This document shows, in pieces, positions 6,374 to 41,114 of a stretch of DNA of 48,473 nucleotides. The notes under the pieces were generated by a model. That model was not told the origin of the DNA and did no database searches. It saw nothing but the letters and a program-made list of their open reading frames with translations. The position numbers and the translations under genes were made by a program. The stretch's first letter is position 1. Each line of letters starts with the position of its first letter. The DNA comes from Thermoleophilia bacterium (GTDB taxonomy: Bacteria; Actinomycetota; Thermoleophilia; Gaiellales; Gaiellaceae), in contig JADGPE010000003.1 of the NCBI GenBank assembly GCA_017882605.1, forward strand, positions 1 through 48,473, given 5' to 3'.

Positions 6374-7786
6374 CTACGCCGCTTCGAACGACGGCTCGAG
6401 CTCGAGCACGTCGCGCTTGGGACGGCGCCTGATCGCGAACAGCGAGAGCGAACCGAGTGCGACGACGACCGCGCCGACCCAGACCGCCGGCGTCAGGCCG
6501 TCGACGAATGCGGTGCCGCTCGTGTAGCCGCCGTAGTGGCTGAACACCGACGCGAGGACTGCGACGCCGAAGACGCCGCCGAGCTCGCGTACGGCGTTGT
6601 TCGCGCCGGAGGCCTGGCCTTCTTCCTCACCGCGGACGGTCGAAAGGATCAGGTTCGCGATCGGCGCGAAGAAGAGCCCCATCCCGATCCCGGACAGCGC
6701 GAACGGCGCGACCAGGTCGACGTACGGCGTGGTCGGGGTCGACACCGCGGCGATCCACGCCAGGCCGATCGCCTGCAACGCGAGCCCCGTGCCGATGATG
6801 CGCGAGGGCGAGATGCGGTCGGAGAGCGCTCCCGCGATCGGCGCCACGATCATCGGCATCGCCGTCCACGGGAGGATGCGCAGGCCGGAGCCGAGAGGCG
6901 AGTAGCCCTGCACGGTCTGGAAGAACTGCGCGAGCAGGAAGACCGAGCCGAACATCCCGAAGCTCATCAGCATCGACCCGACGTTTGCGAGCGCGAACGT
7001 GCGGTTGCGGAAGAAGCGCATCGGCAGCATCGGATGCGGGGCCCGCAGCTCCCAGGCGACGAACGCGGCGACGAGCACGAAGCCGGCCGCCAGGGCGCCG
7101 GCGATCTCCGGCGTGGCCCAGCCGACCGAGTTGCCGCGCACGAGCCCCCAGACGATCCCGAAGAGCCCTGCGCTCACGAGGCCGAGCCCGGGCAGGTCGA
7201 CGCGCCCGAAGGGCCCCTTCGTCTCGTCGAGCCGCAGGAGTGCGAGCGGCACGAGCACGAGGCCGAGCGGAACGTTCAGCCAGAAGATCCAGTGCCAGGA
7301 GATGCCGTTGACGACGGCGCCGCCGACGAGCGGGCCGAACGCGACCGCGAGGCCGCTGATGCCGCCCCACGCACCGAGGAAGACACCGCGCCGCTCCGCC
7401 GGGACGCCCGCCGAGAGGATCGTCAGCGTCAGCGGCAGGACGATCGCCCCGCCGAGGCCCTGCAGCGCGCGGGCCACGTCGAGCGCGGCGATCGACGGCG
7501 CGAGCGCCGCGCCCGCCGAGGCGAGCGTGAAGATCCCGATCCCGATCGAGAACATCAGCCGGCGCCCGAACCGGTCGCCGAGCGCGGCGCCGGTCAAGAG
7601 GAGGACGGCAAAGACGAGCGTGTAGGCGTTCACGGTCCACTCGAGCCCGCTGAGGCCGGCATGAAGGTCGCGGCGGATCACGGGGATCGCCGTGGTCACG
7701 ACGAGGTTGTCGAGCGTGACCATGAAGAGCGCGGCCGACGTGATCGCAAATGTCCACCACATGCTCGCTTTTGCTTTGTGAGTCAT
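6374..7786 (-). CDS. DHA2-family MFS drug exporter (14-helix, EmrB/QacA type)
   Basis: A 470-residue proton-driven multidrug exporter with about 14 hydrophobic segments. Signature stretches are LDNLVVTTAIPVI in helix 1, the loop GAALGDRFGRRLMF, and motif C-like GGISGLAVAFGPLVGGAVV. The ATG at 7786 has a strong ribosome site (GGAGG, 7 nt away). The gene lies 30 nt downstream of the tetR gene on the same strand. A 19-nt sequence overlapping its start repeats the sequence upstream of tetR with two mismatches, so the TetR protein probably controls both genes. Substrates are probably hydrophobic antibiotics, but this is inferred from the family only. Confidence 0.92.
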   Translation of the reverse strand: MTHKAKASMWWTFAITSAALFMVTLDNLVVTTAIPVIRRDLHAGLSGLEWTVNAYTLVFAVLLLTGAALGDRFGRRLMFSIGIGIFTLASAGAALAPSIAALDVARALQGLGGAIVLPLTLTILSAGVPAERRGVFLGAWGGISGLAVAFGPLVGGAVVNGISWHWIFWLNVPLGLVLVPLALLRLDETKGPFGRVDLPGLGLVSAGLFGIVWGLVRGNSVGWATPEIAGALAAGFVLVAAFVAWELRAPHPMLPMRFFRNRTFALANVGSMLMSFGMFGSVFLLAQFFQTVQGYSPLGSGLRILPWTAMPMIVAPIAGALSDRISPSRIIGTGLALQAIGLAWIAAVSTPTTPYVDLVAPFALSGIGMGLFFAPIANLILSTVRGEEEGQASGANNAVRELGGVFGVAVLASVFSHYGGYTSGTAFVDGLTPAVWVGAVVVALGSLSLFAIRRRPKRDVLELEPSFEAA

Positions 7787-7796
7787 TACTTACCTC
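7778..7796 (+). promoter_or_regulatory. Operator-like repeat at the DHA2 exporter start
   Basis: GTGAGTCATTACTTACCTC spans the ribosome site and first codons of the exporter. It matches the minus-strand sequence upstream of tetR (8369-8387) at 17 of 19 positions. Confidence 0.45.
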
Positions 7797-7816
7797 CAGA
7801 TGAAAAAAAGAGACAC

Positions 7817-8362
7817 TTACTGGTCGGTCTTGCAGCCCTCGAGCAGCCGGCGGCCCCAATCCTCGGCCGGGGCCTCCATCGACGAAAGCACGTTCATCAA
7901 CATCCCGCTCGAGAAGAACTTCGCGAGCTCCACCGGGGAGACGCCCGAGACACGCTCGACGTAGTTGACGAGATCGCCGAAGCCGTCGCGGACGACGGCA
8001 CAGATCTCCGGGTCCTCGCAGGCCGCGTGGGCCTGCATCTGGGCCCGCAGGTAGACGCGGTCGGATTCCAGGAGCTCGCCGTAGGCCTTGCCGATCGCGT
8101 GCAGGGCCTCCTCGCCCCGCTTGCCCTCCGCCGCCCGCTGGAAGGTCTCGAGCGTCTGGCGGAAGCAGCGGGCGACGACGGCCATATAAAGCCCCTTCTT
8201 CGTCCCGAAGAGCCGGAAGACGTAGGGCTGCGAGATTCCCGCGAGCCGGGCGATCTCGTCGGTCGAGGCGCCGTGGAGGCCTTTCTCCGCGAACTCGGCG
8301 ACCGCGGCGTCGATGATCTCCTCGCGCCGCTCCTCCTTCGTCTTCCGTTCCGTCATGACCAT
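7817..8362 (-). CDS. TetR family regulator of the DHA2 exporter
   Basis: A 181-residue repressor. The N-terminal DNA-binding domain shows the TetR pattern: EEIIDAAVAEFAEKGLHG, then TDEIARLAGISQPYVFRLF for the helix-turn-helix, then KKGLYMAVV. The C-terminal ligand domain is less conserved and resembles TetR proteins linked to drug exporters. The ATG at 8362 is 10 nt after the aminotransferase stop; a second in-frame ATG lies at 8356. A TAACCT box 7 nt upstream overlaps the palindrome TAGTGA-tgac-TCACTA. It probably represses itself and the downstream exporter. Confidence 0.9.
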   Translation of the reverse strand: MVMTERKTKEERREEIIDAAVAEFAEKGLHGASTDEIARLAGISQPYVFRLFGTKKGLYMAVVARCFRQTLETFQRAAEGKRGEEALHAIGKAYGELLESDRVYLRAQMQAHAACEDPEICAVVRDGFGDLVNYVERVSGVSPVELAKFFSSGMLMNVLSSMEAPAEDWGRRLLEGCKTDQ

Positions 8363-8368: not shown

Positions 8369-8389
8369 GAGGTTAGTGATGACTCACTA
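8369..8389 (-). promoter_or_regulatory. TetR operator and promoter
   Basis: A perfect 6-bp inverted repeat (TAGTGA, tgac, TCACTA; 8374-8389) overlaps a minus-strand -10 box TAACCT (8370-8375), 7 nt before the tetR ATG. The operator lies over the last codons of the aminotransferase gene. A near copy occurs at 7778-7796. Confidence 0.55.
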
Positions 8390-9446
8390 GTTTGTCAAGC
8401 GCCTCCGCCACCCGGTCGAGGTCGCCGTCCGAGAGCCGCGTGTGGAACGGCAGTGCGAGCGCCCGCTCGAAGACGCGCCGGGCCCCCGGGAACTCGCCCT
8501 GGTCGCGGTAGGCACCGAGCAGCGGCAGCGAGTAGGTGCCGATCTGCGCCTCGATCCCCTGTCCGCGCAGCTCGGCGAGGACGCGGTCGCGGTCGTCGAC
8601 CTGCAGCACGTAGGCCTGCCACCCGTGGACGTCGCCCTCGTCGGCGCGCGGCAGGAGCACCGGCAGGTGCTCCAGGCGCGACGTGTAGCCCGCGGCGATC
8701 CGCGTGCGCGCCGTGAGCAGCTCCTCGAGGCGGCGGGCCTGCGGGATGCCGACCGCGCAGAGGATGTCGGACAGGCGGTAGTTGAGCCCCGGCGCCGGCA
8801 GGTCGGCCGGAGCGAGCGAGCGCCAGCCATGATTGCGCATCTGGCGCACGACGTCGGCAAACGAATCGTCGGAGGTTGTGACCGCGCCGCCCTCGCCGGT
8901 CGTGACGATCTTGCGCGGATGGAAGCTCAGGCAGCCCGCGATGCCGAGGCCGCCGCAGGCGCGGCCGCGGTAGCGCGCGCCGAGCGCGCCCGCCGCGTCT
9001 TCGAGCAGCGGCACGTCGGGCAGCTCGTGCAGCGGCAGCGGCCGCCCGAACAGATGCACGCCGAGCAGCAGCTTGGTGCGCGGCCCGACCCGAATCTGCG
9101 CCGGGTCGATGTTCATCGTCTCCGGGTCGACGTCGACGAGCACCGGCTTGAGGCCGGCGAGTGCGACGACGTTCGCCGTCGCGGGGAACGTGTAGGCGGG
9201 CACGAGCACCTCGTCCCCGGGCTCGAGCGCCGCGGCGAGCACCGCCAGATGGAGCGCCGCGGTGCCCGAGGTGACCGCGAGCGCGTGCTCCACCTCGCAC
9301 AGGCGCGCGATCTCGGCCTCGAACTCGAGCACCTTCGGGCCCATCGTGAGCATGCCGCTCTCCAGGACCCCGGCCACCTCGGCGAGCTCCTGCTCGCCGA
9401 CGTCGGGCCAGCCTAAGCGGATTGGAGCGTCTTCTCTCGATACCAC
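8373..9446 (-). CDS. DegT/DnrJ/EryC1/StrS aminotransferase
   Basis: A 357-residue PLP-dependent aminotransferase for keto-sugar nucleotides. It shows SGTAALHLAVLAA (phosphate-binding loop), VPAYTFPATANVVALAG, EDAAGALGA (the Asp that binds the pyridine nitrogen) and FHPRKIVTTGEGG with the catalytic lysine. The GTG at 9446 overlaps the epimerase end by 34 nt and is followed by a normal family N-terminus (IRLGWPDVGEQELAEV). It would aminate the product of the neighbouring epimerase/dehydratase gene. The tetR gene follows 10 nt later, so the operon may read on into tetR and the exporter. Confidence 0.9.
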   Translation of the reverse strand: MVSREDAPIRLGWPDVGEQELAEVAGVLESGMLTMGPKVLEFEAEIARLCEVEHALAVTSGTAALHLAVLAAALEPGDEVLVPAYTFPATANVVALAGLKPVLVDVDPETMNIDPAQIRVGPRTKLLLGVHLFGRPLPLHELPDVPLLEDAAGALGARYRGRACGGLGIAGCLSFHPRKIVTTGEGGAVTTSDDSFADVVRQMRNHGWRSLAPADLPAPGLNYRLSDILCAVGIPQARRLEELLTARTRIAAGYTSRLEHLPVLLPRADEGDVHGWQAYVLQVDDRDRVLAELRGQGIEAQIGTYSLPLLGAYRDQGEFPGARRVFERALALPFHTRLSDGDLDRVAEALDKLVSHH

Positions 9447-10381
9447 GCGATCGTCTTCTCGAGGCCCTCGTCGAGCTCGACCTGCGGCTCCCAGCCGAGC
9501 ACCTCCCGCGCCTTCTTCACGTTCGGGATCCGCAGCTCGACGTCCGCGTAGTGGAGCGGCTGGAAGACGATCTCGCCGGCGGCGCCGCTCAACCGCTTGA
9601 TCCGCTGGGCGAGGTCGAAGATCGTCACCGCAGCGCGCGGATTGCCGATGTTGAACGCCTGCCCGACTGCCGCCGGGTGCTCGAGGCAGAGCAGCACGCC
9701 CGCGACCATGTCGGTCACATACGTCCACGCCCGGATCTGCGAACCGTCGCCGTGGATCGTCAGGTCACGGCCGGCGAGCGCCGCCTCGATGAAGGCGCGG
9801 ATCGCCCCGCCGCCGATCTGGCCGGGGCCGAAGATGTTGAACGGATGCACGGTGACGGTCGGCAGGCCGAGCTCGTCGTGGTAGGCGTGAGCCATGTGCT
9901 CGCCCGCGAGCTTCGACACCGCGTACGTCCAGCGCGCCTCACCGACGGATCCGATCGTCGACACCTGGCCCTCCTCGACGTTCAGGGCGTGCGTGCCGAA
10001 CACCTCGCTCGTCGAGAAGTCGACGAACCGCTCGAGCGTGTCCAGCGTTCCGAGAGCCGCCTCGAGCGCGTTGTACGTGCCGATCACGTTCACGCGCATC
10101 GTCCGCACCGGGCTCGCGAGCACGGTGTCGACCCCGGCAATCGCCGCGCAATGGACGAGGTGGGTCGCGCCCCGGGCCGCCTCGGCGAAGTGAGCGGCAT
10201 CGAGGATGTCGCCCTCGATCAGCTGGAAGTTTGGATGCTCCGCGAGCTCGAGGCCGGAAAGGGCGTCGCGGTGGAGATTGTCGTAGGCGATCACCGTGTT
10301 CCGCTCGACGAGCTCCCGCGCGAGCGTCGTGCCGATGAAGCCCGCACCGCCGCTGATGAAGATTCGCTTGCCCTCGAGCAT
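9413..10381 (-). CDS. NAD-dependent sugar epimerase/dehydratase
   Basis: A 322-residue extended short-chain dehydrogenase. The NAD-binding motif is ISGGAGFIGTTLAREL. The active site appears as STSEVFG and YAVSKLAGEHMAHAY (Tyr-x3-Lys). A VHPFNIFGPGQIGGG loop and a C-terminal RIPNVKKAREVLGW segment are typical of UDP-glucose 4-epimerase/GDP-mannose dehydratase-like enzymes. It begins the minus-strand operon with DegT. The TACCCT box 7 nt before its ATG overlaps the promoter box of the divergent methyltransferase. Whether it epimerises or dehydrates cannot be told from sequence. Confidence 0.88.
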   Translation of the reverse strand: MLEGKRIFISGGAGFIGTTLARELVERNTVIAYDNLHRDALSGLELAEHPNFQLIEGDILDAAHFAEAARGATHLVHCAAIAGVDTVLASPVRTMRVNVIGTYNALEAALGTLDTLERFVDFSTSEVFGTHALNVEEGQVSTIGSVGEARWTYAVSKLAGEHMAHAYHDELGLPTVTVHPFNIFGPGQIGGGAIRAFIEAALAGRDLTIHGDGSQIRAWTYVTDMVAGVLLCLEHPAAVGQAFNIGNPRAAVTIFDLAQRIKRLSGAAGEIVFQPLHYADVELRIPNVKKAREVLGWEPQVELDEGLEKTIAWYREKTLQSA

Positions 10382-10404: not shown

Positions 10405-11328
10405 GTGGACGAACGGCTCGCAGCCTGGCTCGGAGAGGAGGATCTCGATCCACTGTGGCGTCGCGTGCTCAAGCGGCCGATCGAGCCGGCCGAGCGCGAG
10501 ACGACCGACCAGCGCCTTCGCGCCGGCCTGTCGCGCTCGACGCTGCTGCGGGAGCTCGTCACCTCCGACGAGTTCGAGCACGTGAGGCGCCTGGACGACG
10601 CGGTCGCGTGGGCGGCAGCCCAGCGGGCCGAGGGTGCGCGTCCTCGCAATCTCCAGGCGTCGCCCGGGACGGACGAGCGCCCGGTCGAGATCCCGTGGTG
10701 CCTCGCACGCTACGCCGGCGAGCCGCGCGTCCTCGACGTCGGCTACGCGTTCGCCGAGCGCGCCTACCTCGCCGGCCTCGTGGGGATCGGCGCGCGGGAG
10801 CTCGTGGGCGTCGACCTCGTGTCGGCCGAGGTGCCGGGCCTTCGCAGCGTTCAGGCCGACCTGCGCGATCTGCCGTTCGGGAACGAGGAGTTCGACGTCG
10901 CGATCGCGATCTCGACGCTCGAGCACGTGGGCCGCGACAACACCCAGTACGGCCTCGGCGCAGAGGAGGGCGACACGCTCGACGGCGCGCTTCGCGAGCT
11001 GCGGCGCGTCTCCAAGCGGTTACTCGTGACCGTGCCGACGGGCGAGCGCGAACTGCTTCCGGAACAGTCGGTCTACACGCCGGCCGAGTGGGTCGAGCGC
11101 TTCACCCGCGCCGGCTTCGTCGTCTACGAGGACGAGCTGTACGAGCTCACCGACGACGGTTGGCGCTCGGTACCTGAGCTGACGCGCGGTCTGCGGTACG
11201 GCGCGCGCGGCCCCGGCGCCTCGGCGGTGCTCTGCGCCGAGCTCCGGCCCCGGACGGTCGGCGAGCGGGTGCGGCTAGCCGTCCGCGACCGGCGCCACCG
11301 CGGGGACATCCGGCGCGTTACCGGGTGA
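10405..11328 (+). CDS. SAM-dependent methyltransferase with an N-terminal DUF4214-like helical segment
   Basis: A 307-residue protein. Residues about 10-55 (LWRRVLKRPIEPAERET, then LLRELVTSDEFEHV) resemble the DUF4214/phycobilisome-linker-like helical repeat, often found joined to sugar-modifying enzymes. The rest is a class I methyltransferase with a modified motif I (VLDVGYAFAERAYLAGL), LVGVDLVSAEVPG, DLRDLPFGNEEFDVAIAIST, then LEHVGRDNTQYG. The GTG at 10405 is set by the TAGCTT box 6 nt upstream. Its end overlaps the convergent MFS gene by 54 nt. It probably methylates a sugar or glycan. Confidence 0.78.
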   Translation: MDERLAAWLGEEDLDPLWRRVLKRPIEPAERETTDQRLRAGLSRSTLLRELVTSDEFEHVRRLDDAVAWAAAQRAEGARPRNLQASPGTDERPVEIPWCLARYAGEPRVLDVGYAFAERAYLAGLVGIGARELVGVDLVSAEVPGLRSVQADLRDLPFGNEEFDVAIAISTLEHVGRDNTQYGLGAEEGDTLDGALRELRRVSKRLLVTVPTGERELLPEQSVYTPAEWVERFTRAGFVVYEDELYELTDDGWRSVPELTRGLRYGARGPGASAVLCAELRPRTVGERVRLAVRDRRHRGDIRRVTG

Positions 11329-12507
11329 TGCCCGCAATACGGCGGCGATGAAGAGCAGCGCGCCGACGCTCATGCCGCCGGCGATCTCGATCCAGACGGC
11401 GGCGTTCCCGCCGAGTCGGTAGAGCGGGCCGATCACGAGCCGGCCCGCCGGACCACCCAGGCCACTTGCCGCCATCACGGCGGTCATCACCTTCGCGCGC
11501 AGCGCCGCAGGTGGCCGAGTCGAGATGAGCCCCATCACCGGCGCGTTGATCAGCGGGACGAAGAGACCGCACAGCACGACCGCGAGGCCGACGACCGGCC
11601 AGGACACGGGCGCCACGACGATCCACAACGGGAGCGACGCCGCGACGATCCCGACGCACGCGAGGCGAAGCGCCGACACACGGTCGAGCAGCTTCACCAC
11701 GAGCACCGAGCCCATGATCGCTCCGACCCCGAACGCAGTGAAGATCCAGCCCGCGACGTGCGGGTTCCGGTCGTACCGCGTGAACGCCAGCAGCGGCACG
11801 GCAACGCTGATGCCGTTGGCGGCGCCGTCGAGCACGATCACGGTCAGCGTCATCGGGCCGAGCAGCTTGTCGCGCATGAGGTAGCGGACACCGGCAAGGA
11901 CACCGCGGCTCTCGTCATCCATCACGACCCGCCGTCCGCCCCGCACGAACCCGAGCACGACGAGGAACGCGAAGAGAAATGTTCCGGCGTCGACGACGAG
12001 GAGCGGCGACGTCCCGAGAAAGCCGATGAGGACGCCCGCGATCGACGGACCGATCACGATCGGCAGGTGCTGTGCCGCACCGAAGAGCCCCGATGCCTTC
12101 GAGACGGCATTCTCGTCGTCGCCGTAGAGCTCCGGCAAGATCGAACGCTGGGAGCTGATGTAGGGCGCGTTGAAGCAGCCGAGCAGGAAGACGATCGCGA
12201 GCAGCCCTGGGAAGCTCAGATGGCCCGTCCAGTGGAGGATCGGCACCAGCGCGACGAGCGGCGCGCGCACGAGATCGGAGATCAGCATCGTCGTGCGCGC
12301 ACCGAGGCGGGCGACGACAGAGCCGCTCGGAATGCCGAACAGGGCCATCGGGAGGATCTCGGCGGCAAGGACGACGCTCATCCGCGTCGGCGAGCCACCC
12401 GAGACGAGCACGAACCACGGCAGCGCAACGAAGGTCATCGCGCTCCCCGTGCTGGAGACGGCTTCGGCCGTGAGCAGTGCCGGCAGGGTCAGGTTCGAGC
12501 TCCTCAT
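11275..12507 (-). CDS. MFS transporter (MFS_3, macrolide/enterobactin exporter type)
   Basis: A 410-residue membrane transporter with 12 predicted helices. Helix 1 is TLPALLTAEAVSSTGSAMTF. The loop after helix 2 is SGSVVARLGARTTMLISD, and FNAPYISSQRSILPEL is typical of the MFS_3 group of MefA/EntS-like exporters. It is transcribed divergently from a tetR gene 43 nt away, the usual arrangement of a repressor and its efflux pump. Its promoter is the best in the window: TTTACA, 17 nt, TATTTT, with the ATG only 6 nt after the -10. The message is therefore probably leaderless. Confidence 0.9.
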   Translation of the reverse strand: MRSSNLTLPALLTAEAVSSTGSAMTFVALPWFVLVSGGSPTRMSVVLAAEILPMALFGIPSGSVVARLGARTTMLISDLVRAPLVALVPILHWTGHLSFPGLLAIVFLLGCFNAPYISSQRSILPELYGDDENAVSKASGLFGAAQHLPIVIGPSIAGVLIGFLGTSPLLVVDAGTFLFAFLVVLGFVRGGRRVVMDDESRGVLAGVRYLMRDKLLGPMTLTVIVLDGAANGISVAVPLLAFTRYDRNPHVAGWIFTAFGVGAIMGSVLVVKLLDRVSALRLACVGIVAASLPLWIVVAPVSWPVVGLAVVLCGLFVPLINAPVMGLISTRPPAALRAKVMTAVMAASGLGGPAGRLVIGPLYRLGGNAAVWIEIAGGMSVGALLFIAAVLRASPGNAPDVPAVAPVADG

Positions 12508-12550: not shown

Positions 12551-13111
12551 GTGCCGAAGGTCTCGGAAGAGCATCGCGCCGGGCGCCGGCGCCAGATCGC
12601 GACGGGCGCGCGGCGCGCATTCGCCGAGCACGGCTACGCCGGCGCGACCGTCGAGGTGCTCGAGCGCGAGATCGGGCTCTCCCGCGGGGCGATCTTCAGC
12701 TATTTCCCGACGAAGCTCGAGCTCTTCCTCGCCCTTGCGCAGGAGGATCAGCACCGGATCCTCGAGCTGTGGCTCGAGAGTGGGCACGAGGCGGTCGTCC
12801 GGCACATCGTCGAGGACGACCCCGAGTGGCTCGCCGTCTATCTCGACGCCTCGCGCATGCTGCGAACCGATCCGGGGCTCCGCGACCGGTGGCACACGCT
12901 GAACCCGGACGCCCAGGCACAGCTCGAGCGGCACTACACCGAGCTTCAGTCAGCGGGCCGGATTCGGAGCGACGTGCCGCTCGAGACCGTCGGGCGGTTC
13001 CTCGGGGTCGTGTTCGACGGTCTCGCCGTGCAGCAGGCTGCGAGGTTCGGCCGGCCGATCGACGTTGACGGGACGATCGAGCTCCTGCGCTCGGCGCTCG
13101 CGCCGAAGTAG
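12551..13111 (+). CDS. TetR family regulator divergent from the MFS exporter
   Basis: A 186-residue TetR protein. The N-terminus (MPKVSEEHRAGRRRQIATGA) and the helix-turn-helix (ATVEVLEREIGLSRGAIFSYF) fit the family, and the C-terminal domain resembles TetR_C_6-like ligand domains. The GTG at 12551 is the only reasonable start and lies 6 nt after a TAAAGT box. It probably represses the divergent exporter and itself. The ATP-grasp gene follows after 12 nt, so the regulator may be co-transcribed with the glycan genes. Confidence 0.9.
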   Translation: MPKVSEEHRAGRRRQIATGARRAFAEHGYAGATVEVLEREIGLSRGAIFSYFPTKLELFLALAQEDQHRILELWLESGHEAVVRHIVEDDPEWLAVYLDASRMLRTDPGLRDRWHTLNPDAQAQLERHYTELQSAGRIRSDVPLETVGRFLGVVFDGLAVQQAARFGRPIDVDGTIELLRSALAPK

Positions 13112-13123: not shown

Positions 13124-14332
13124 GTGAGAACCGTCCTCTTCGTCGGCGCGGGGCGCCACCAGCGCCGGGCGATCCTGCGGGCCAAGGAGCTCGGCCTGCG
13201 GGTGGTCGCGGTCGACCGCAATCCCGAAGCGCCCGGCCTCGCGGAGGCGGACATCGCGAAGGTCGTCGACTTCGCCGATGCAGCCGCGGTGCTCAAGGCA
13301 ACGGCGCGGATCAAGCTCGACGGCGTCATGACCGTCAGCGCCGACCGCGCCGTTCCGATCGTCGCGGCGATCGCCGAGGCACGCGAGCTGCCCGGGATCG
13401 GCGTCGAGACGGCGCACCTGATGACGCACAAGATCGCAATGCGTACGCGGCTCGCCGACGCAGGCGTGCCGCAGCCGCGCTACGCAGCGGTGCGGTCGAT
13501 CGCGGAAACGCGTCGCGCCGCCAACGAGGTCGGCTTCCCGTCGGTCCTCAAGCCGGCGGACTCCGGCGGCCAGCGCGCGGTCTTCCGCGTCGAGTCGCTC
13601 GACGAGATCCACGCCCACCTGCATGAGGTCCTCGTGGCGTCACCGACCGGAGAGGCGATCCTCGAAGAGTTCGTCGACGGTGTCGAGATGAACGGGATCG
13701 TTGTCTCGCGAAACGGGGAGTCGATCCCCCTGACGCTGTCCGACCGGCTGCGCCCGCCGGGCATCGGCTTCGGCGTCGGCTGGATCCATGTGTATCCGGC
13801 GACGGCGTACGGCGAACAACTCGAGGAGTCGGAGCGGATCGCGGTGCACACCGTGCACGCTCTCGGGCTCAAGACGGGCATCGCGTTCCCGCAGTTGATC
13901 GCGACACGAGACGGCCGCGTCGTCGTCGTCGAGTGCGCGGCGCGCATCCCGGGCGGTCAGATGGCCGACCTCGTGCGGTGGGCGACCGGCGTCGACCTGG
14001 TCGAAGTGCAGATCCTGATGGCGCTCGGCGAGGACCTTCCCGACGAGCTCGTGCTGCCGAGGTTCAACCAGCCGCTCGCGATCCGCTTCTTCACCGCCGA
14101 GCCGGGGCCGCTGCCGGCCGGGCGCGTGAAGCGCATCGGCCCGCTGGACAAGGTGCTCGCGTTTCCCGGTGTCGTCCAGGCGGACGTCTATCTGCAGGTC
14201 GGCGAGACGATCCGCCCGGTGCGCGTCGACGGCGACCGGCGCGGCTACGTGATCGCCATCGCGGACACGAATCTCGAGGCGCTCGAGCGCGCCGAGGCTG
14301 CAGCGACGCTCCTCGACGTGGAGGTCGAATGA
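13124..14332 (+). CDS. ATP-grasp ligase, first of a pair in a glycan operon
   Basis: A 402-residue ATP-grasp protein of the PurK/biotin-carboxylase-like kind. It has an N-terminal Rossmann part (VLFVGAGRHQRRAILRAKEL), the ATP-binding FPSVLKPADSGGQRAV, the hinge ILEEFVDGVEMNGIVV, and the metal-binding VVVVECAARIPGGQMAD. The C-terminal domain ends with a GETIRPVRVDGDRRGYVIA segment, as in acyl-AMP-independent carboxylate-amine ligases. It overlaps the deacetylase-like gene as ATGA. With a second ATP-grasp gene two places on, it suggests that a glycan is decorated with amino acids or other carboxylates. The substrate cannot be read from the sequence. Confidence 0.87.
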   Translation: MRTVLFVGAGRHQRRAILRAKELGLRVVAVDRNPEAPGLAEADIAKVVDFADAAAVLKATARIKLDGVMTVSADRAVPIVAAIAEARELPGIGVETAHLMTHKIAMRTRLADAGVPQPRYAAVRSIAETRRAANEVGFPSVLKPADSGGQRAVFRVESLDEIHAHLHEVLVASPTGEAILEEFVDGVEMNGIVVSRNGESIPLTLSDRLRPPGIGFGVGWIHVYPATAYGEQLEESERIAVHTVHALGLKTGIAFPQLIATRDGRVVVVECAARIPGGQMADLVRWATGVDLVEVQILMALGEDLPDELVLPRFNQPLAIRFFTAEPGPLPAGRVKRIGPLDKVLAFPGVVQADVYLQVGETIRPVRVDGDRRGYVIAIADTNLEALERAEAAATLLDVEVE

Positions 14333-14970
14333 CCTGCGACTTCTCCCTCCCGCACTACCGTGAGCTGCTCCAGGCGGCGCAGCGCGGCGGCTACCGGTAC
14401 GCAGGATTCGACCGCGCGCCGGAGGCCGGCACGCTCATCCTCCGCCACGACGTCGACCTCTCGCTCGAGGGCGCGCTCACGGTCGCGGAGGCCGAGGCTG
14501 ACGAAGGGGCATGGTCGACGTGGTTCCTGATGACGCGCTCGGTCTTCTACAACCTTGCCTCTTCCGAGGGAGAGCGCACGATCGCGCGGCTGCGCAAGCT
14601 CGGACATCGCGTCGCACATCATGCGGTGTGGCCCCACGTCGACCTCGACGACCGTTTCGACCGGGTCTTCACCTGGCACAACCCGGAACCGGAGTACATG
14701 CAGGCGGAGATCCCCGGCGCGGTGAATGCGATGGGGGTCTCGTTCTTCGATCCCGGGCACTACCGCTCCGACTCGAACCAGCACTGGCGGCACGGATGCC
14801 CGCACGGCGAGCTCGAGCGCGGCGCGTTTCCGTGGTTGCAGCTGCTGACGCATCCGGAGATCTGGGTGTTCGACGGAGCGACGATGCGCGAATCGATGGA
14901 GTCGATGCTCGACGCCGACCGGGCGGCGCGCCTCGAGCATCTGCGACAGGACAGAATCGACCTCTCGTGA
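14329..14970 (+). CDS. NodB-like polysaccharide deacetylase family protein
   Basis: A 213-residue protein of the carbohydrate esterase 4-like fold. The metal- and base-containing motif LRHDVDLSLEGAL sits near residue 40, and a second histidine motif (HRVAHHAVWPH) near residue 95, as in NodB-type deacetylases. The usual C-terminal half is shortened. It carries HPEIWVFDGATMRESMESM, a segment seen in deacetylase-like genes of surface-polysaccharide clusters. ATGA and GTGA overlaps couple it to ATP-grasp genes on both sides. It may remove an acetyl group so that the freed amine can be acylated by a ligase. That sequence of events is inference. Confidence 0.8.
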   Translation: MTCDFSLPHYRELLQAAQRGGYRYAGFDRAPEAGTLILRHDVDLSLEGALTVAEAEADEGAWSTWFLMTRSVFYNLASSEGERTIARLRKLGHRVAHHAVWPHVDLDDRFDRVFTWHNPEPEYMQAEIPGAVNAMGVSFFDPGHYRSDSNQHWRHGCPHGELERGAFPWLQLLTHPEIWVFDGATMRESMESMLDADRAARLEHLRQDRIDLS

Positions 14971-15992
14971 GACCGATCACAGTCATGGTCACGGCATCGG
15001 GCGCGCCGGGGACGGCTGCGCTGCTGCGTGCGTTGCGCCAGAACGGTGAGCGCGAGCTGCGCCTGGTCGGAACCGACATGTGCGAGCGCTCCGTCGGCCG
15101 GCATCTCTGCGACACCTTTCACGTCGTCCCCGGAGGGGCCGATCCTGCGTTTCCGGACGCGATGCTCGCCGTGGCCAAGCACGAGGGAGTCGACGCGATC
15201 CTGCCGCAGTCGTCGTTCGACCTCGAAGGGCTCGCGGCCCACGTCGAGCGATTTCCGATGCCGGTGCTCGTCTCGAGCCCCGACGCGATCCACCGCTCGA
15301 ACGACAAGGCAGAGACCTACGAGTTCCTGCACCGCATCGGCGTGCACGCTCCGGAGTTCCGGCGTGTCAACGGCGCGCGAGAGGTCGAAGCCGCGGCACG
15401 CGAGCTCGGCTACCCGGACCGCCCGGTGTGCTTCAAGCCGGTGTTCTCGTCCGGCTCGCGCGGCTTTCGCATCCTCGACCCGACCGTCGACCGCGCGCAC
15501 CAGCTCCTGAACGAGCGGCCCGGGTCGGTTGCGATGCGGCTCGAGGAGGTGGTCGAGCTCCTCCCGGACGAGGGCGGGCCGGACCTGCTCGTGATGGAGC
15601 TCGCGACGGGCGGCGAGCGGACGATCGACGGCATCGGCAACGGCCGCGAGATCGTGCTCGGGCATCCGAAGACGCGCGAGGCGATGCGCGCCGGGCTCGC
15701 GATGTACTTCGTCACGCTGGCGGACGAGGAACTGATGCGCACCGCGAACCTGATCGTCGCCGAGCTCGGCATCGAGCACTTCTTCAACATCCAGCTCGTC
15801 GGCGAGCACGTGATCGAGATCAATCCGCGCATCTCGACGATCGTCTACCAGGAGGATCTGAACCTTCCGTACCTCGGCGTGAAGCGCGCACTCGGGGAGA
15901 TCACGGACGACGAGCTCCGGACGTACGCCGCCCGCATCCGCCCCGGCCGGACGGCGCTCCGCTACTTCGACCAGCTCGAGTTCGACCAGTGA
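14967..15992 (+). CDS. CarB-like ATP-grasp ligase, second of the pair
   Basis: A 341-residue ATP-grasp protein closest to short carbamoyl-phosphate-synthase large-subunit-like ligases. The N-terminal pre-ATP-grasp part (ITVMVTASGAPGTAALLRAL) is followed by FKPVFSSGSRGFRIL (ATP lid), LLVMELATGGERTIDG, and the metal-binding HVIEINPRISTIVYQEDLN. The GTG at 14967 overlaps the deacetylase stop. Such short CarB-like proteins are common in exopolysaccharide clusters, but few have a known reaction. The next gene follows after 151 nt containing two palindromes. Confidence 0.87.
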   Translation: MRPITVMVTASGAPGTAALLRALRQNGERELRLVGTDMCERSVGRHLCDTFHVVPGGADPAFPDAMLAVAKHEGVDAILPQSSFDLEGLAAHVERFPMPVLVSSPDAIHRSNDKAETYEFLHRIGVHAPEFRRVNGAREVEAAARELGYPDRPVCFKPVFSSGSRGFRILDPTVDRAHQLLNERPGSVAMRLEEVVELLPDEGGPDLLVMELATGGERTIDGIGNGREIVLGHPKTREAMRAGLAMYFVTLADEELMRTANLIVAELGIEHFFNIQLVGEHVIEINPRISTIVYQEDLNLPYLGVKRALGEITDDELRTYAARIRPGRTALRYFDQLEFDQ

Positions 15993-16067: not shown

Positions 16068-16122
16068 GGCCGACCGCCGGCTTCCGCAGTTCATGTGTCA
16101 TCTGCCGGATTCGGACCAGACC

Positions 16123-16143
16123 CTTGGTCAGACCAAGATCGGC
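16123..16143. promoter_or_regulatory. GntR-type palindromic operator, copy 2
   Basis: CTTGGTCAGACCAAG is a perfect 15-nt palindrome ending 6 nt before the glycosyltransferase ATG at 16144. Its centre lies 98 nt from that of copy 1. Confidence 0.55.
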
Positions 16144-17097
16144 ATGAGCGAGACAATTCGTCCACAGGGCATACGCGTCACGCACTGCCCGGTGAACATC
16201 GCCGGGATCCCGTGGGAGAACGTGCAGGCTCTCCGGCGCAAGGGCGTCGACGCGCGGCTCGTCGTCTTCGAGCGCGGCAGGCTGCATCACGAGGCCGACT
16301 GGTCGCTCGACCGCCGCGGCCCACTGCCCGTGCGGCTCGCGCAGCAATTCGGCGCATTCGCAAGGCTCGCGCCGCAGACCGACATCTTCCATTTCTACTT
16401 CGGGCTGACGCTGATCCCGAAGTCGCTCCAGTTCCCGCTGCTGCGAACGCTCCGGAAGAAGAGCGTCTTCCACTACCTCGGGTCGGACATTCGCGGCAAG
16501 ACGCGCGGCGAGCTCGCATTCGGGAAGCGCGCCGACGCGGAGATCGTCGGCTCCTACGACGCAGCGCGCTGGGTCCCCGAAGCGCACGTGATCCCGCCGG
16601 GGATCGACCTGCGCGAGTTCACTCCGCAGGCGCCGTCGGACAGCCCGCGGCCGCTCGTCGTCCACGCACCGTCGAACCGCGAGAAGAAAGGCACGCAGTT
16701 CGTGATCGACGCCTGCGCGCACTTGCCGGTCGAGCTCGACATCGTCGAGGACGTGCCCCACGAGGAGGCACGCGCCCGCTATGCGCGCGCTGACATCGTC
16801 GTCGACCAGTTGAACGCGGGCTGGCACGGTGTCTTCGCCCTCGAGTCGATGGCGCTGGGCAAGCCCGTCGTCACCTACTTGAAGCCCGACGTGGTCGAAC
16901 GCAGCGCAGCCGGCTTCGGAATCCGCATCCCGATCGTGCCTGCGACGAAGGAGACGCTCGTCGACGCCCTGCGGCCCCTCGTGGAACAGCCCGCGCTACG
17001 CCGTGAGGTCGGCGCCCAGAGCCGCGCCTACGTCGAGCAGGTGCACGACATCGACCGCGTGGCCGACCGCCTGCTGGACCTCTACCGTTCCCTCTAG
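16144..17097 (+). CDS. Family 4-like glycosyltransferase
   Basis: A 317-residue GT-B glycosyltransferase. The N-terminal acceptor domain begins VTHCPVNIAGIPWENVQAL. The C-terminal donor domain starts at about residue 165 with VIPPGIDLREFTP, LVVHAPSNREKKGTQFVIDA, and the nucleotide-sugar-binding region WHGVFALESMALGKPVVTYL, in which the Glu before Ser-Met-Ala is the usual donor contact. An upstream ATG at 16093 exists, but a start there would put operator copy 2 inside the coding region; 16144 is preferred. The flippase follows directly. It probably adds a sugar to the lipid-linked glycan built by this operon. Confidence 0.85.
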   Translation: MSETIRPQGIRVTHCPVNIAGIPWENVQALRRKGVDARLVVFERGRLHHEADWSLDRRGPLPVRLAQQFGAFARLAPQTDIFHFYFGLTLIPKSLQFPLLRTLRKKSVFHYLGSDIRGKTRGELAFGKRADAEIVGSYDAARWVPEAHVIPPGIDLREFTPQAPSDSPRPLVVHAPSNREKKGTQFVIDACAHLPVELDIVEDVPHEEARARYARADIVVDQLNAGWHGVFALESMALGKPVVTYLKPDVVERSAAGFGIRIPIVPATKETLVDALRPLVEQPALRREVGAQSRAYVEQVHDIDRVADRLLDLYRSL

Positions 17098-18528
17098 TTG
17101 AGCCTCGCCTTTCAGATGCGGCGCCTTGCGCGCCACTCGGCGATCTACGGCATCGGCGGCCTCGTGTCGCGGATCCTCGCCACGATCCTGCTCCCGCTCT
17201 ACACGCACTACCTGCCGCCGAATGCCTTCGGCGAGGTCGAGATCATCACGGCCGCGACCGCAGTGCTCGCGATCGGGCTGCAGATGGGGATCGCGAGCGC
17301 GTTCTTCCGCTTCTACTTCGATGCGAAGGAGGAGCCCGAGAAGCTCACCGTCGTCCGCACGTCGTTCTGGTTCACGATGGCGACGGCGACCGTCGGCCTC
17401 GTGCTCGGCATCGTCTTCGCCGGCCAGATCAGCCACCTGCTCGGCCTCGGCCACGCCGTGTGGCTCGTGCGTGCCGGAGCCGTCGGGCTCTGGGCGCAGA
17501 CGAACTACCAGCAACTGACCGCGCTCTTCCGCGTCGAGGAACGGTCGACGGCCTACGCGATCGCGAGCATCACGAACGTCCTCGTGACGGTCGCGGCGAT
17601 GGTCGTCTTCGTCGCCGTCTTCCACTGGGGCGCGATCGGGCTCGTCGTCGGCAACTTCACCGGCACGCTCGTCGTCTACCTCGGGCTCATTGCCTACCGC
17701 ACAGAGCAGCTCGGGCTCGAGTTCGACCGCGCGCTCTTCCGGCGCATGCAGTCGTTCGGGATGCCGCTCGTGCCTTCGGCGCTCGCGCTCTGGATGATCA
17801 ACTTCATCGACCGTGAGTTTGTGTCCTGGTACAAGGGCAACGCTGAGGTCGGTGTCTACTCGGCGGCGGTGAAGATCGCGTCGGTGATCACCTTCGTGAT
17901 GATCGCCTTCCGCACCGCGTGGCCGGCGTTCGCATACTCGATCGAGGACGACCGCGAAGCGAAGCGCACCTATGCGTTCGTGCTCACCTACCTGCTCGCG
18001 TTCTCGTCGTGGGCCGCGCTGGCGCTCGGCGCGCTCGCGCCGTGGTGGACGAAGCTCCTCACCGCGCCGCAATACGAACGCGCACAGAACGGCGTCGCGC
18101 TGCTCGCCTTCGCAGGCGCGATCTACGCCGGCTACACGGTGCTCGCGATCGGCAGCGGCCGCGCGCGCCGCACACAGCTCAACTGGGTCGTGACCGGCGT
18201 CGGAGCGGGGGCCAACATCGCGTTGAACTTCTGGCTGATCCCGAAGTACGGGATGGTCGGCGCCTCGATCTCCACGCTCGCCGCGTACGTTGTCCTCTTT
18301 GCCGGGATGACGCTCTACGCCCAGCGCGTCTACCCCGTGCAGTACCAATGGCGGCGCGTCGTCACGGCCGTGGGCGCTGCGGCGGCGTTGAACATCGCCG
18401 CGCGCGCGACGGGATTGTCGTTGCTTCCGTCGCTTCTCTGCGTCGCGGTGTATCCGCTTGCGCTCGCCCTGCTCGGCTTCTACCTGCCGGCCGAGCGGGC
18501 CCGGCTCAGACGCCTAGCGGCGCCGTGA
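17098..18528 (+). CDS. Wzx-type polysaccharide flippase
   Basis: A 476-residue membrane protein of the MOP superfamily with about 12-14 hydrophobic helices. The N-terminus (YGIGGLVSRILATILLPLYT) and YLPPNAFGEVEIITAATAVL match oligosaccharide flippases that move lipid-linked repeat units across the membrane. It ends with a basic tail. The TTG at 17098 follows the glycosyltransferase stop with no gap; an ATG at 17116 is an alternative. With the ligase/polymerase at 23186-24637 and the sugar transferase at 35692, it suggests Wzx/Wzy-type assembly of a surface glycan. Confidence 0.88.
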   Translation: MSLAFQMRRLARHSAIYGIGGLVSRILATILLPLYTHYLPPNAFGEVEIITAATAVLAIGLQMGIASAFFRFYFDAKEEPEKLTVVRTSFWFTMATATVGLVLGIVFAGQISHLLGLGHAVWLVRAGAVGLWAQTNYQQLTALFRVEERSTAYAIASITNVLVTVAAMVVFVAVFHWGAIGLVVGNFTGTLVVYLGLIAYRTEQLGLEFDRALFRRMQSFGMPLVPSALALWMINFIDREFVSWYKGNAEVGVYSAAVKIASVITFVMIAFRTAWPAFAYSIEDDREAKRTYAFVLTYLLAFSSWAALALGALAPWWTKLLTAPQYERAQNGVALLAFAGAIYAGYTVLAIGSGRARRTQLNWVVTGVGAGANIALNFWLIPKYGMVGASISTLAAYVVLFAGMTLYAQRVYPVQYQWRRVVTAVGAAAALNIAARATGLSLLPSLLCVAVYPLALALLGFYLPAERARLRRLAAP

Positions 18529-21765: not shown

Positions 21766-22557
21766 TCACGTTTCCAGCACGAACTCGTTCCCCGACGGGT
21801 CCCGCAATTCGCCTCCGACGGCGGCGGCGATCCGGTCGCGCTCATCGTCGTCCGGGACGACGATCGTGAAGTGCGTCAGGCGAGCCGTGCCCGTGGGAGC
21901 CGGAGCCGCGCCGCGGCTCTCCCACGTGTTCGCACCGAGGTGATGGTGGTAGCCGCCGGCGCTCAGGAACGCGGCCTGGTCGCCCAGCTGCGCGATCAGG
22001 TCGAAGCCGACGACGTCCCGGTAGAAGCGGACGCTCTCCTCAACGTCGGCGACACGCAGGTGAACATGGCCCATCCGGGTGCGTTCGGGCAAGGCGCGTG
22101 CCGGCTCGGTGTTCGTGGCCAGCAGATCGTCGACGTCGAGCGGCCAGGTGCCGATGCGGTCGGCCTGCCCTTCCCAGAGACGCCGCGGCCGGTCGGCGTA
22201 GATCTCGATCCCGTGGTGGTCGGGGTCGCGCAGGTAGAGCGCCTCGCTGACGAAATGATCCGAGGCGCCGGTCAACTGGACCCGGTCACTGATCGCATGC
22301 TGCATCCAGCCGGCCAGGTCGCGGCGCTCGGGCACGAGCAGGGCGAAGTGGAAGAGACCGGTGTAGCCGTCGGCGGGCCGGGCGCCCGGCTCCTCGACGA
22401 GGTGCACGAGCTCGTGGCCGCCCGCCCCCAGGCTCGCCTCGCCGTCGCCGAACCCCAGCACGTCGAGCCCGATCGACTCGGTGTAGTAGGTGAGCGACCG
22501 CACGAGATCCGCCACGGTGAGCTGGACGGCGCCGACGGTGGTCGCAGGAGCGATCAA
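21766..22557 (-). CDS. Two-domain VOC/glyoxalase family dioxygenase-like protein (CatE-like)
   Basis: A 263-residue protein with two vicinal-oxygen-chelate modules. The first (about 1-120) has VGAVQLTVADLVRSLTYYTE and LYLRDPDHHGIEIY. The second (about 160-263) has MGHVHLRVADVEESVRFYRD, SAGGYHHHLGANTW and LTHFTIVVPD. The two His and the Glu expected to bind Fe or Mn in catechol 2,3-dioxygenase-like enzymes are plausible as the HVH histidine, a histidine in HHHLG and the Glu near the C-terminus. It overlaps the PIG-L gene as ATGA and closes the operon that starts at 25560. The substrate is unknown; the operon context is glycan rather than aromatic breakdown. Confidence 0.82.
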   Translation of the reverse strand: MIAPATTVGAVQLTVADLVRSLTYYTESIGLDVLGFGDGEASLGAGGHELVHLVEEPGARPADGYTGLFHFALLVPERRDLAGWMQHAISDRVQLTGASDHFVSEALYLRDPDHHGIEIYADRPRRLWEGQADRIGTWPLDVDDLLATNTEPARALPERTRMGHVHLRVADVEESVRFYRDVVGFDLIAQLGDQAAFLSAGGYHHHLGANTWESRGAAPAPTGTARLTHFTIVVPDDDERDRIAAAVGGELRDPSGNEFVLET

Positions 22558-23189
22558 GCGACCACCCGGTACACCTGGAACACCTCGGCATACTCACGAT
22601 TCACGTTGATGCCGTGGGTTCGGGCCACGTTCCAGACGTACTCCGAATTCGCGTAGCGCCGGTGCTGCTGCGAGGCGTACTTCTCGAGCGCGGCCACCTT
22701 GCGCTCGACGTGCCGCTGCTCCAGTGCGAGGTATGCCTGGTAGCTGAAGTCGAAGTTGTTCCACGGGATCTCGTAGCCGAGGATCGTCGTCCGCTTGAAC
22801 GCGCGCAGGCCTTCGTTCGCGATCGTCTGGTGATCCTGGTGGACGTCGTGCACGGACGGCATGAACACGCAGTCGGGCTGCCAGTCGCTCCAGATCTCGA
22901 TCAGCAGCTCCAGGATCTCCTGCCGGCGGTCGGGGAACGTGCGCACGTCGAAGTCGTGCACCGTGAGGTTCCCGGGTGGAATGCCGATCTCGGCTGTCGC
23001 CTCGCGGACCTCCCGCGCCAGGGTGTCGGGCGCGAAGCCCTCGGGCAGCGAGCGGGTCGCGATCGAGAAGGCGACGTAGCGCACGTCGGCGCCGGCCTCC
23101 ACCAGTCGGGCCATCGTCCCCCCGCAGCCGAACTCGCCGTCGTCGGTGTGCGGCGCGAGCACGAGCGCCCGCTCGATGCCGTCGATCAT
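22554..23189 (-). CDS. PIG-L/LmbE family N-deacetylase
   Basis: A 211-residue zinc-dependent deacetylase. The metal motif PHTDDGE is near residue 13 and the third ligand and base motif HDVHQDH is near residue 113. The family includes GlcNAc-PI deacetylase, MshB and BshB, plus many enzymes of surface-sugar clusters. ATGA overlaps link it to the O-antigen ligase gene upstream and the VOC gene downstream. It probably removes an acetyl group from an N-acetyl sugar of a lipid-linked or soluble intermediate. No mycothiol partner gene is seen in the window. Confidence 0.9.
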   Translation of the reverse strand: MIDGIERALVLAPHTDDGEFGCGGTMARLVEAGADVRYVAFSIATRSLPEGFAPDTLAREVREATAEIGIPPGNLTVHDFDVRTFPDRRQEILELLIEIWSDWQPDCVFMPSVHDVHQDHQTIANEGLRAFKRTTILGYEIPWNNFDFSYQAYLALEQRHVERKVAALEKYASQQHRRYANSEYVWNVARTHGINVNREYAEVFQVYRVVA

Positions 23190-24637
23190 CCGTCCGCCCC
23201 GGCGGTCGGCCTCCAGATGCGCGCGCCCACCGCGACCAGCCCGAGCAGGCCCCAGAACGAAGGGTCTTCGAAGAGCGCGTTGTAGAAGACGCAGTGCACG
23301 AGAATCGCGACCAAGGCTAGTCCGAATGCGAGACGGGCGGCGCCGTCGAAATTCCGGTCAGGCCGGCGGAACGCAAGCACCACGGCCGTCACGACAAGCC
23401 AGAGAAAGAGGAGCAGGCCGGGGAAGCCCAGCTCCGCCGCGACGGTGACCGGCGTCGTGTGCGACGCCGCCGCCCTCGGCTCCTTGCCGGGGAGGTGCGC
23501 CAGATCCGCGTAGGCGCGCTTGAAACCGCCGACCCCCACCCCGGTCACCGGATGGTGGTACGCGACCTTCACGCCCGTTGAGACGAGCGTCGAGCGGCCG
23601 CTCGTCAGGTGGGAGAGAGACGCCTTGTGCCGGACCGCCGGAAACGCGACGAGCGCGACGCCGAGCAGGACCATGACGGCGCCGACGAGCAGCAGGCTGC
23701 GCCGGCCCCACGCGACGACGAGGGCGATCGCGATCGCGACCATCAGCGCGAGGAAACTCGACTGCGAGAACGACGGCAGAAGGCCGGCCCAGGTGATCAC
23801 GATCGTCAGCGCCGCCGCGACCGACCACAGTGGATCGCCGCGCCGGAACAGCACGACGACGAGGCTCGGGAGGATTCCAAGCACGAGGAAGCGCCCGTAG
23901 ATCGAGGGGTCGTAGAAGACCGAGTTGACCCGGTAGAACCACCCCTTGGGGGCGTACGCGTTGTCGACACGGACCTTCGGGTTCCAGAAGATGGTGCGCG
24001 TCTCGTACTGGACGATTCCGATCACTGCGAAGACGAGCGCCATCAGCGCGAGCTGCACGTACAGGGTCAGCACCCACGCCCGCGACCAGACGAGCCGCGC
24101 GAGCACGACCGCCAGTAGACCGAACGGCAGCACGAAGAAGAGCAGTTCGATCGCGCCCTGCCGCGGATCCTTCGACCAGAGCAACGACAGGCCGTCCCAC
24201 GCGACGAACGCCGCGACCGGCCAGGCGAGCGGCCCAAGCTCGCGCGAGCGATTCGAGCCGTCGCCGCAGAGCTCCCACGCGAGCGCGAGCGCCGCCACGA
24301 CGACGACCCCGTAGAGCGGCACGAGCAGGTTCGCCTGCGTCGACCCGACATGGACCGGAATGCGCGCGGGCACGCACGCGAGGGTCGCAAGCGCGAGCAG
24401 CCACGGGACGCGGAGCACCGCCCAGGTGCCGCCGGCGGCGGCAACAGCCAGGAAGACGGCGGCGGCGGCGAGCAGGCGGTGATGGCCGTGCGGCGCGAGA
24501 TACACAGTGAGCCCGGCGCAGCCCAGCGCCCACAGGGCAAGGCCCGCGACGCGCAGGTCACGACGCGGTGCGACGACGACGAGTGCCAGCCCGAGCGCAC
24601 CGACCGCTCCCACGACCTGCGCCGCGCCCGCGCTCAT
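23186..24637 (-). CDS. O-antigen ligase/Wzy-like membrane protein
   Basis: A 483-residue protein with about 12 hydrophobic helices and a large central extracellular loop. It carries the Wzy_C-type signature HHPVTGVGVGGFKRAYADLA followed by SHTTPVTVAAELGFPGLLLF, as in O-antigen ligases and polymerases. The loop contains ETRTIFWNPKVRVDN and GWFYRVNSVFYDPSIYGRFL. The ATG at 24637 overlaps the stop of the secreted Ig-like gene. It probably polymerises the surface glycan or transfers it to its final carrier outside the membrane. The flippase and sugar transferase in this window are natural partners. Confidence 0.87.
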   Translation of the reverse strand: MSAGAAQVVGAVGALGLALVVVAPRRDLRVAGLALWALGCAGLTVYLAPHGHHRLLAAAAVFLAVAAAGGTWAVLRVPWLLALATLACVPARIPVHVGSTQANLLVPLYGVVVVAALALAWELCGDGSNRSRELGPLAWPVAAFVAWDGLSLLWSKDPRQGAIELLFFVLPFGLLAVVLARLVWSRAWVLTLYVQLALMALVFAVIGIVQYETRTIFWNPKVRVDNAYAPKGWFYRVNSVFYDPSIYGRFLVLGILPSLVVVLFRRGDPLWSVAAALTIVITWAGLLPSFSQSSFLALMVAIAIALVVAWGRRSLLLVGAVMVLLGVALVAFPAVRHKASLSHLTSGRSTLVSTGVKVAYHHPVTGVGVGGFKRAYADLAHLPGKEPRAAASHTTPVTVAAELGFPGLLLFLWLVVTAVVLAFRRPDRNFDGAARLAFGLALVAILVHCVFYNALFEDPSFWGLLGLVAVGARIWRPTAGADG

Positions 24638-41062: not shown

Positions 41063-41068
41063 CGGGTC

Positions 41069-41074
41069 ACGGTA
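41069..41074 (-). promoter_or_regulatory. -10 box for the helicase gene
   Basis: TACCGT on the minus strand, 6 nt before the ATG at 41062. Confidence 0.42.
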
Positions 41075-41114
41075 CCGGCACGCCCGGCGAGCGCTGTGAC
41101 GGGAGTGCAACAGC

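Follow-up and report, generated by a model that had tools for sequence, protein, structure and literature searches.

In the LpxC/LpxD pathway the amine of a UDP-sugar is deacetylated and then N-acylated, and in the biosynthesis of mycothiol and bacillithiol (MshB/MshC and BshB/BshC) a PIG-L deacetylase acts first, after which cysteine is joined to the bared amine. Here we describe a gene set that may follow a related logic with other enzymes. It lies in a 48,473-nucleotide (nt) stretch of DNA from a Thermoleophilia bacterium of the family Gaiellaceae (contig JADGPE010000003.1, assembly GCA_017882605.1; herein the window), where two genes for ATP-grasp enzymes (A and C) flank a gene for a putative deacetylase (B), with genes for a glycosyltransferase and a flippase downstream (Table 1). 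The window is one contig of a 2.1-Mb genome (109 contigs, 82.55% complete) and has a G+C content of 69.4%. The reading that we prefer, and to which we give about an even chance, is that the locus serves to build and export a decorated precursor of an amino-sugar glycan, with A serving an amine made by a transaminase and C an amine freed by the deacetylase.

Porphyromonas gingivalis and Tannerella forsythia offer a described parallel, the Wbp/Vim pathway for a linking sugar. According to the passages that treat this pathway, VimE is a putative CE4 deacetylase proposed to remove an N-acetyl group, and the GNAT/FemAB-like VimA is proposed to put serine or glycine on the freed amine of the amino sugar (PMC7468200). 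B and C would resemble this pair in coupling CE4-type deacetylation to acyl addition at the freed amine; the difference is that a GNAT/FemAB-type enzyme places the amino acid there, whereas here the ATP-grasp enzyme C takes that place. In Wbp/Vim the sugar, a 2,3-diamino uronic acid, is made by Wbp enzymes, and those passages describe no second ligase. Between positions 8373 and 18528 of the window there are one short-chain dehydrogenase/reductase (SDR) gene and one DegT gene, and no Gfo/Idh/MocA or hexapeptide gene was recognised in a Pfam run on part of the genes. Among the loci examined, a PF13480 protein stands beside the deacetylase in one alone, L140.

The other systems are likewise partial matches. 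LpxC/LpxD is echoed by distant homologues of B that adjoin LpxD-like acyltransferases, and differs in using another deacetylase fold and a thioester-using acyltransferase. PIG-L, the deacetylase type of mycothiol and bacillithiol synthesis, is also the partner of C in five genomes; the ligases of those pathways are not known to be ATP-grasp enzymes, however, and no flippase is found there. A mycothiol-type PIG-L (PF02585) is absent from the cassette itself, where B is CE4-like, the PIG-L gene of the window lying elsewhere. PylC, the 3-methylornithine-lysine ligase, is an ATP-grasp amide ligase among the folds closest to C (about 20% identical), and the L-amino acid ligases (BL00235, BacD/YwfE) are ATP-grasp amide ligases whose LAL_C2 domain A shares; the known acceptors of PylC and the L-amino acid ligases are amino acids and not amino sugars. 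One ATP-grasp ligase domain, from Metazoa and in fusion with an esterase, was predicted to attach amino acids or peptides to surface polymers (PMC2824669). We found no description of the A-B-C gene set in open-licence literature on ATP-grasp enzymes with a deacetylase or a surface sugar. As the initial annotation of the window had supposed, the gene set thus appears to be undescribed, although the logic of its chemistry is already known from the available account of Wbp/Vim (PMC7468200).

Conservation of the A-B-C gene set

The sequence bears out the arrangement first annotated: the stop codon of A overlaps the start of B, and the stop of B the start of C, by 4 nt each. A and C belong to the ATP-grasp superfamily, both having Pfam matches above cut-off and invariant lysines and acidic residues, and for neither was a family with a known unrelated reaction identified.

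Our sample of relatives comprised the window's genome and 100 others (101 genomes). B is present in 40 of these and C in 56 (E 1e-15); for A, paralogues included, the number is 67 (E 1e-20). Scanning species genomes with the B alignment gave 61 named loci, and a six-frame hidden Markov model search kept the B match in 60 of them (exception, L125). Counting a gene as present when it lay within 1.2 kb on the same strand, the 49 B loci with at least 1.5 kb on each side divide into 36 A-B-C, 8 A-B and 2 B-C, with B by itself in 3; in L110, counted as A-B, C is present past the flippase gene. The 61-locus and 101-genome counts share many contigs and are not independent, and some genomes give two loci. 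Conservation of the cassette, for which the initial annotation had proposed a co-occurrence search as a check, is therefore confirmed by the 36 A-B-C loci. Long contigs also carry the genes: G030, a single-contig genome, has A-B, and a 3.28-Mb contig of G054 has A-B-C.

The order SDR-DegT, then A-B-C, a GT4-family glycosyltransferase (GT4) and a Wzx-type flippase, is kept across relatives. Dozens of genomes share it, with proteins about 50-90% identical, and the gene set is therefore beyond chance. Public labels of the cassette loci are mostly Thermoleophilia, Actinobacteria, Gaiella, Gaiellaceae or Gaiellales, with a few others. A phylum-wide set of 346 genomes contained B in 6 and C in 3 (the latter at E 1e-25), and the full cassette is therefore essentially a trait of the Gaiellales, an order of soil actinobacteria. 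B also occurs in 2 of 246 genomes of the class that holds the genome of L140; weak B matches in low-GC genomes (L153, L154) were left out of the counts.

Additional genes accompany B in some loci. An S-adenosylmethionine-dependent methyltransferase gene lies immediately upstream of B in 10 loci, and an APH-type kinase gene separates B from C in at least three (L083, 3959-4648; L084, 3646-4392; L095, 4027-4758), its family (PF01636) having been checked on L083 alone.

B has a CE4-like predicted fold and invariant residues

At E 0.01 neither Pfam nor NCBIfam has a family that B matches, and the sequences of the PDB gave nothing for B even at E 10. It does not reach the gathering score of PF01522 (Polysacc_deac_1), a family touched by only 2 of 24 aligned B sequences (best E 0.17), and does not match PF22537 (WbmS). 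An AlphaFold2 model built from 54 sequences has a predicted local distance difference test score (pLDDT) of 95.6. Foldseek matches to this model are weak, the best being a remote match to a chitin deacetylase (2iw0, E 5.1e-3). Structural realignment with VIA-align puts WbmS (3hft) at the top (Z 11.0; root-mean-square deviation 3.4; 167 residues aligned; 12% identity), and the rows that follow are mostly CE4 enzymes, with Z from 11.0 to about 8; for both B and C these lists re-rank Foldseek's own matches, which leaves room for families absent from those. WbmS is a Bordetella O-antigen protein, likewise encoded by an O-antigen gene, and its name occurs as a gene name in part of PMC3849452. An hhalign comparison of B with WbmS-like proteins, using a two-row profile, was uninformative (probability 3.6).

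The motifs of B are RHDVD, H98, WHNP, RSD and LTHP. D41, D43, H98, H117, D148 and H175 are invariant in 54 of 54 sequences, and the active-site set is also invariant in 13 of 13 rows that include haloarchaeal, alphaproteobacterial and Longimicrobiaceae homologues (27-42% identity). Read from the alignment rather than from a superposition on the CE4 metal site, D41 may be the base, D43, H98 and H117 the metal ligands and H175 the acid; the HxxxH metal motif presumably departs from the canonical form. Because of its fold and conserved residues, and with no Pfam family match, we read B as a deacetylase, very probably a CE4-like de-N-acetylase. The initial label of NodB-like holds as far as a remotely CE4-like fold goes and fails at the level of PF01522.

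C is found beside two unrelated kinds of deacetylase

C matches PF15632 and PF02655 above cut-off, its AlphaFold2 model has a pLDDT of 90.7, and K114, K157, E211, E284, N286 and R288 are kept in 42 of 42 aligned sequences. At one locus (L085; G008:C173, 5699-6557, minus strand) the match to C is split in two, with about 56 query residues left unmatched in the middle, so that either the gene is broken or the assembly is at fault.

In 36 of the 56 C-bearing genomes B lies at most 1 kb upstream of C on the same strand, and in G037 it is 2.3 kb away. The surroundings of C were inspected in all 19 remaining genomes. In five (G061, G070, G088, G093 and G098) a PIG-L gene, confirmed with PF02585, immediately precedes C: the two overlap by 4 nt in L080, L163 and L165, and are 29 nt apart in L164 and 62 nt apart in L081. 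C thus stands beside a deacetylase in 41 of 56 genomes, the two enzymes, B and PIG-L, being unrelated. Three more genomes (G014, G039 and G048) have PIG-L within 2.5 kb of C in another arrangement. Neighbours were also counted at loci with 4.5 kb on each side of A or C: B or PIG-L is near in 12 of the 16 loci with C and without A (B 4, PIG-L 8), and PIG-L is near in 0 of 17 loci with both C and A and 0 of 21 A loci. Taken together, C is very probably the partner ligase of B. Genes near C in G017, G024, G059 and G048 that look CE4-like by eye (LTHDVD) were not counted as deacetylases; Pfam finds DUF7033 only in L156 and L157, and nothing in L160 and L161.

Similar pairs occur in other lineages. 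We opened 6 of the 17 plasmid records matching the B protein of L140 and 6 of the 87 matching C, one record being in both sets. A Haloarcula plasmid carries, in order, genes for an acyltransferase, DegT, a hydrolase, a B homologue, a glycosyltransferase, a C homologue (39.2% identical) and a HAD protein; on a Halobaculum plasmid PIG-L overlaps a C homologue (35.6% identical) by 4 nt, with a PHP gene next. Outside Gaiellales a HAD or PHP phosphatase-like gene stands right after the C homologue in L150 (11526-12119), L172 (11080-11751) and L173 (9068-9724).

Eleven distant B loci have readable neighbours, and in six the next gene is acylating or of the WbqC family, the two being counted together: a PF13480 GNAT/FemAB-type gene in L140, LpxD-like or hexapeptide genes in L150, L175 and L177, and WbqC in L152 and L181. 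In four others (L171, L172, L176 and L182) an acylating, WbqC-family or ATP-grasp gene lies within three genes of B, and in the last, L151, none was seen near B. The Longimicrobiaceae locus L140 reads SDR, DegT, a PglD-like acetyltransferase (PglD_N above cut-off) and, further on, B and the PF13480 protein. A and C would hold the places of the two acyltransferases there, and this parallel, from one locus, is our most direct argument for their roles.

A keeps company with SDR and DegT

The LAL_C2 domain (PF18603) scores 59.4 bits in A against a cut-off of 29.4. Residues K103, K143, E181, D207, E270 and R274 are kept in 19 of 19 aligned sequences; position 272, usually the Asn that follows the metal Glu, is Ala in all 19.

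Of 21 loci with A, 17 have both SDR and DegT nearby, against 1 of the 16 loci with C and without A (Fisher p = 6.7e-6; the other p value from the neighbour counts is 3.3e-4, and these tests ignore shared ancestry and use locus classes picked after the loci were seen). Among 19 loci with paralogues of A of the L-amino acid ligase type, mostly at contig edges, 16 have SDR nearby and 12 have DegT; in family f3, A shares no more than about 30% identity with that of the window. Since A follows the SDR/DegT pair, its amine is more likely the SDR/DegT product than one freed by B. The initial annotation had suggested removal of an acetyl group followed by the joining of two carboxylates to the freed amine. 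The first part of this scheme agrees with the coupling of C to deacetylases (41 of 56 genomes), whereas A, in its SDR/DegT company, need not use the same amine.

A proposed route and its alternatives

In the route that we propose, SDR and DegT would build a sugar with a new amine, and A, having activated a carboxylic acid (in the likeliest case an amino acid) as an acyl phosphate, would join it to that amine. B would strip the acetyl group from another N-acetyl position, and C, to judge from its pairing with deacetylases of two unrelated kinds, would join a second acid to the amine so freed; GT4 and Wzx would then assemble and flip the product. The association of A with SDR and DegT, together with a second SDR-DegT-ATP-grasp module without a deacetylase (1-3200), makes two sources of amine the better fit. 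More tentatively, two ligases may yield a doubly acylated diamino sugar and hence two amide-linked amino acids on a surface glycan, with the deacetylase and ATP-grasp pair forming an exchangeable, undescribed module (CE4-like or PIG-L) common to Thermoleophilia and haloarchaea.

Several observations weigh against this route. In 8 of the 49 B loci A-B occurs without C close by, and in G007, G009, G012 and G059 A adjoins C without B; B and C are therefore not strictly bound. No recognisable deacetylase-like neighbour of C was seen in 8 of the 19 inspected genomes (G007, G009, G012, G042, G047, G064, G067 and G022, where C sits at a contig edge), or beside the C homologue on four Haloferax plasmids. 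PIG-L genes are also common in the glycan islands of this lineage. The fold of C, moreover, lies about equally near to PylC, biotin carboxylase and PurK, which makes the amide bond no more than a predicted product.

This last point bears on an alternative in which C would act as a carboxylase, form a carbamoyl group or use an acid other than an amino acid, turning the amine into a carbamate, a urea or another acyl amide. The folds closest to that of C are 2pn1, then PylC (4ffr), biotin carboxylases, L-amino acid ligases and PurK, with Z scores of 25.0 for biotin carboxylase, 24.7 for PylC and 23.8 for PurK, and the nearest NCBIfam models, all below cut-off, are carbamoyl phosphate synthase-like. 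On its model, C is an active-looking ATP-grasp enzyme whose fold does not separate amide ligases from carboxylases. Set against this, Foldseek ranks the amide ligase PylC second, behind only the uncharacterised 2pn1; N-acyltransferase-like genes are found coupled to homologues of B; and A is of the L-amino acid ligase type. We consider this alternative unlikely.

A and C might instead act in series, building a dipeptide-like chain on one transaminase-made amine, with A adding the first amino acid and C attaching the next acid to it, while B acts elsewhere or trims an acetyl cap. The four genomes in which A adjoins C without B would fit such a chain, as would the presence of SDR or DegT near C in 14 of 17 loci with both C and A. 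In five genomes, however, C stands beside PIG-L without A and with no SDR/DegT pair in reach, and is there therefore independent of the product of A; B, moreover, pairs directly with C or with other enzymes of the acylating kind. We regard a serial arrangement as rather unlikely.

A small exported or intracellular molecule, for example a mycothiol-like pseudo-disaccharide, is a quite improbable product in place of a surface glycan. The logic of glycosyltransferase, deacetylase and amine ligase is that of mycothiol and bacillithiol, and a pair of major facilitator superfamily (MFS) and TetR genes is frequent beside SDR-DegT; yet a Wzx-type flippase is in the same operon, the window encodes a protein with an O-antigen-ligase domain, and B is CE4-like whereas MshB and BshB are of the PIG-L type. 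That the genes merely share a glycan island and act on different molecules, as the occurrence of A, B and C each without one of the others might suggest, is highly improbable in view of the 4-nt overlaps, the near-constant order over 50-90% protein identity and the recurrence of B/C and PIG-L/C pairs in Archaea.

Genes surrounding the cassette

The features of the window are collected in Table 1. The glycosyltransferase and the flippase annotated after the cassette are confirmed by Pfam, as is the third ATP-grasp gene in another sugar operon, which encodes a protein 37% identical to A. Modules like this second one (GT2-family glycosyltransferase, SDR and ATP-grasp, no deacetylase) are found at loci L069 and L075, where DegT is complete. 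A gene call based on codon usage gave the ends of A and B as first annotated and put the starts of C, the GT4 gene and the third ATP-grasp gene at 14985, 16192 and 1249, respectively.

Table 1. Coordinates of the cassette and of other features in the window
Feature	Position	Strand	Basis or remark
ATP-grasp A, L-amino-acid-ligase type	13124-14332	+	GTG start, 402 amino acids; PF18603 and CPSase_L_D2
B, CE4/WbmS-like putative de-N-acetylase	14329-14970	+	ATG start, 213 amino acids; fold and conserved residues
ATP-grasp C, CPSase/PylC-like	14967-15992	+	GTG start, 341 amino acids; PF15632, PF02655
Overlap of A stop and B start, ATGA	14329-14332	+	Sequence
Overlap of B stop and C start, GTGA	14967-14970	+	Sequence
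GT4-family glycosyltransferase, same operon	16093-17097 (open reading frame)	+	PF00534 above cut-off; kept beside cassette in relatives
Wzx-type flippase, same operon	17098-18528	+	PF01943, E 3.4e-23; kept in relatives
NAD-dependent SDR, nucleotide-sugar enzyme	9413-10381	-	STSEVFG and YAVSK motifs; kept beside cassette
DegT-type sugar aminotransferase	8373-9377	-	N-terminus may begin further upstream
Methyltransferase	10405-11328		Between SDR and A
MFS-like gene	11275-12507		Between SDR and A
TetR gene	12551-13111		Between SDR and A
Third ATP-grasp, L-amino-acid-ligase type	155-1354	-	PF18603 above cut-off; second module, without deacetylase
RmlB/LegB-like SDR, second module	1306-2301	-	
GT2 glycosyltransferase, second module	2298-3200	-	PF00535, E 1.3e-31
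Start of DegT-like gene, second module	1-183	-	Cut by window end; read from translation
PIG-L gene	22554-23189	-	
O-antigen-ligase-domain protein	23186-24637	-	PF04932

The best PDB sequence match of the SDR near A is 8vr2 (E 2.4e-111), for which, as its nearest solved relative, our literature search found no paper; its STSE motif is presumably compatible with decarboxylases and dehydratases alike. The neighbouring DegT protein falls below the cut-off of the PseC and ArnB models of NCBIfam, and its PDB matches are perosamine synthetase and ArnB. An EmrB-type MFS exporter gene and a TetR-like gene (6374-8362, minus strand) adjoin this DegT/SDR pair, as they do in many related loci. Further along, the PIG-L gene overlaps the O-antigen-ligase-domain gene by 4 nt (22554-24637, minus strand). 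Another amino-sugar region (36376-44169) holds an AsnB-type amidotransferase gene with DUF354 on the plus strand and a large CapD/PglF-like dehydratase gene with DegT on the minus strand. A link to exosortase/PEP-CTERM was dropped: PF09721 occurs in 3 of the 101 genomes (2 above cut-off) and not in the window's own, 82.55% complete genome.

Significance

The glycans of such bacteria and archaea have been little studied. If the proposed route is right, the gene set would provide a genomic signature for amide-substituted surface sugars in both groups, and would suggest a function for those ATP-grasp genes of sugar operons whose annotation stops at carbamoyl phosphate synthase-like. A pair of overlapping genes in which one deacetylase and one ligase would act on one amino sugar should also be tractable for enzymology.

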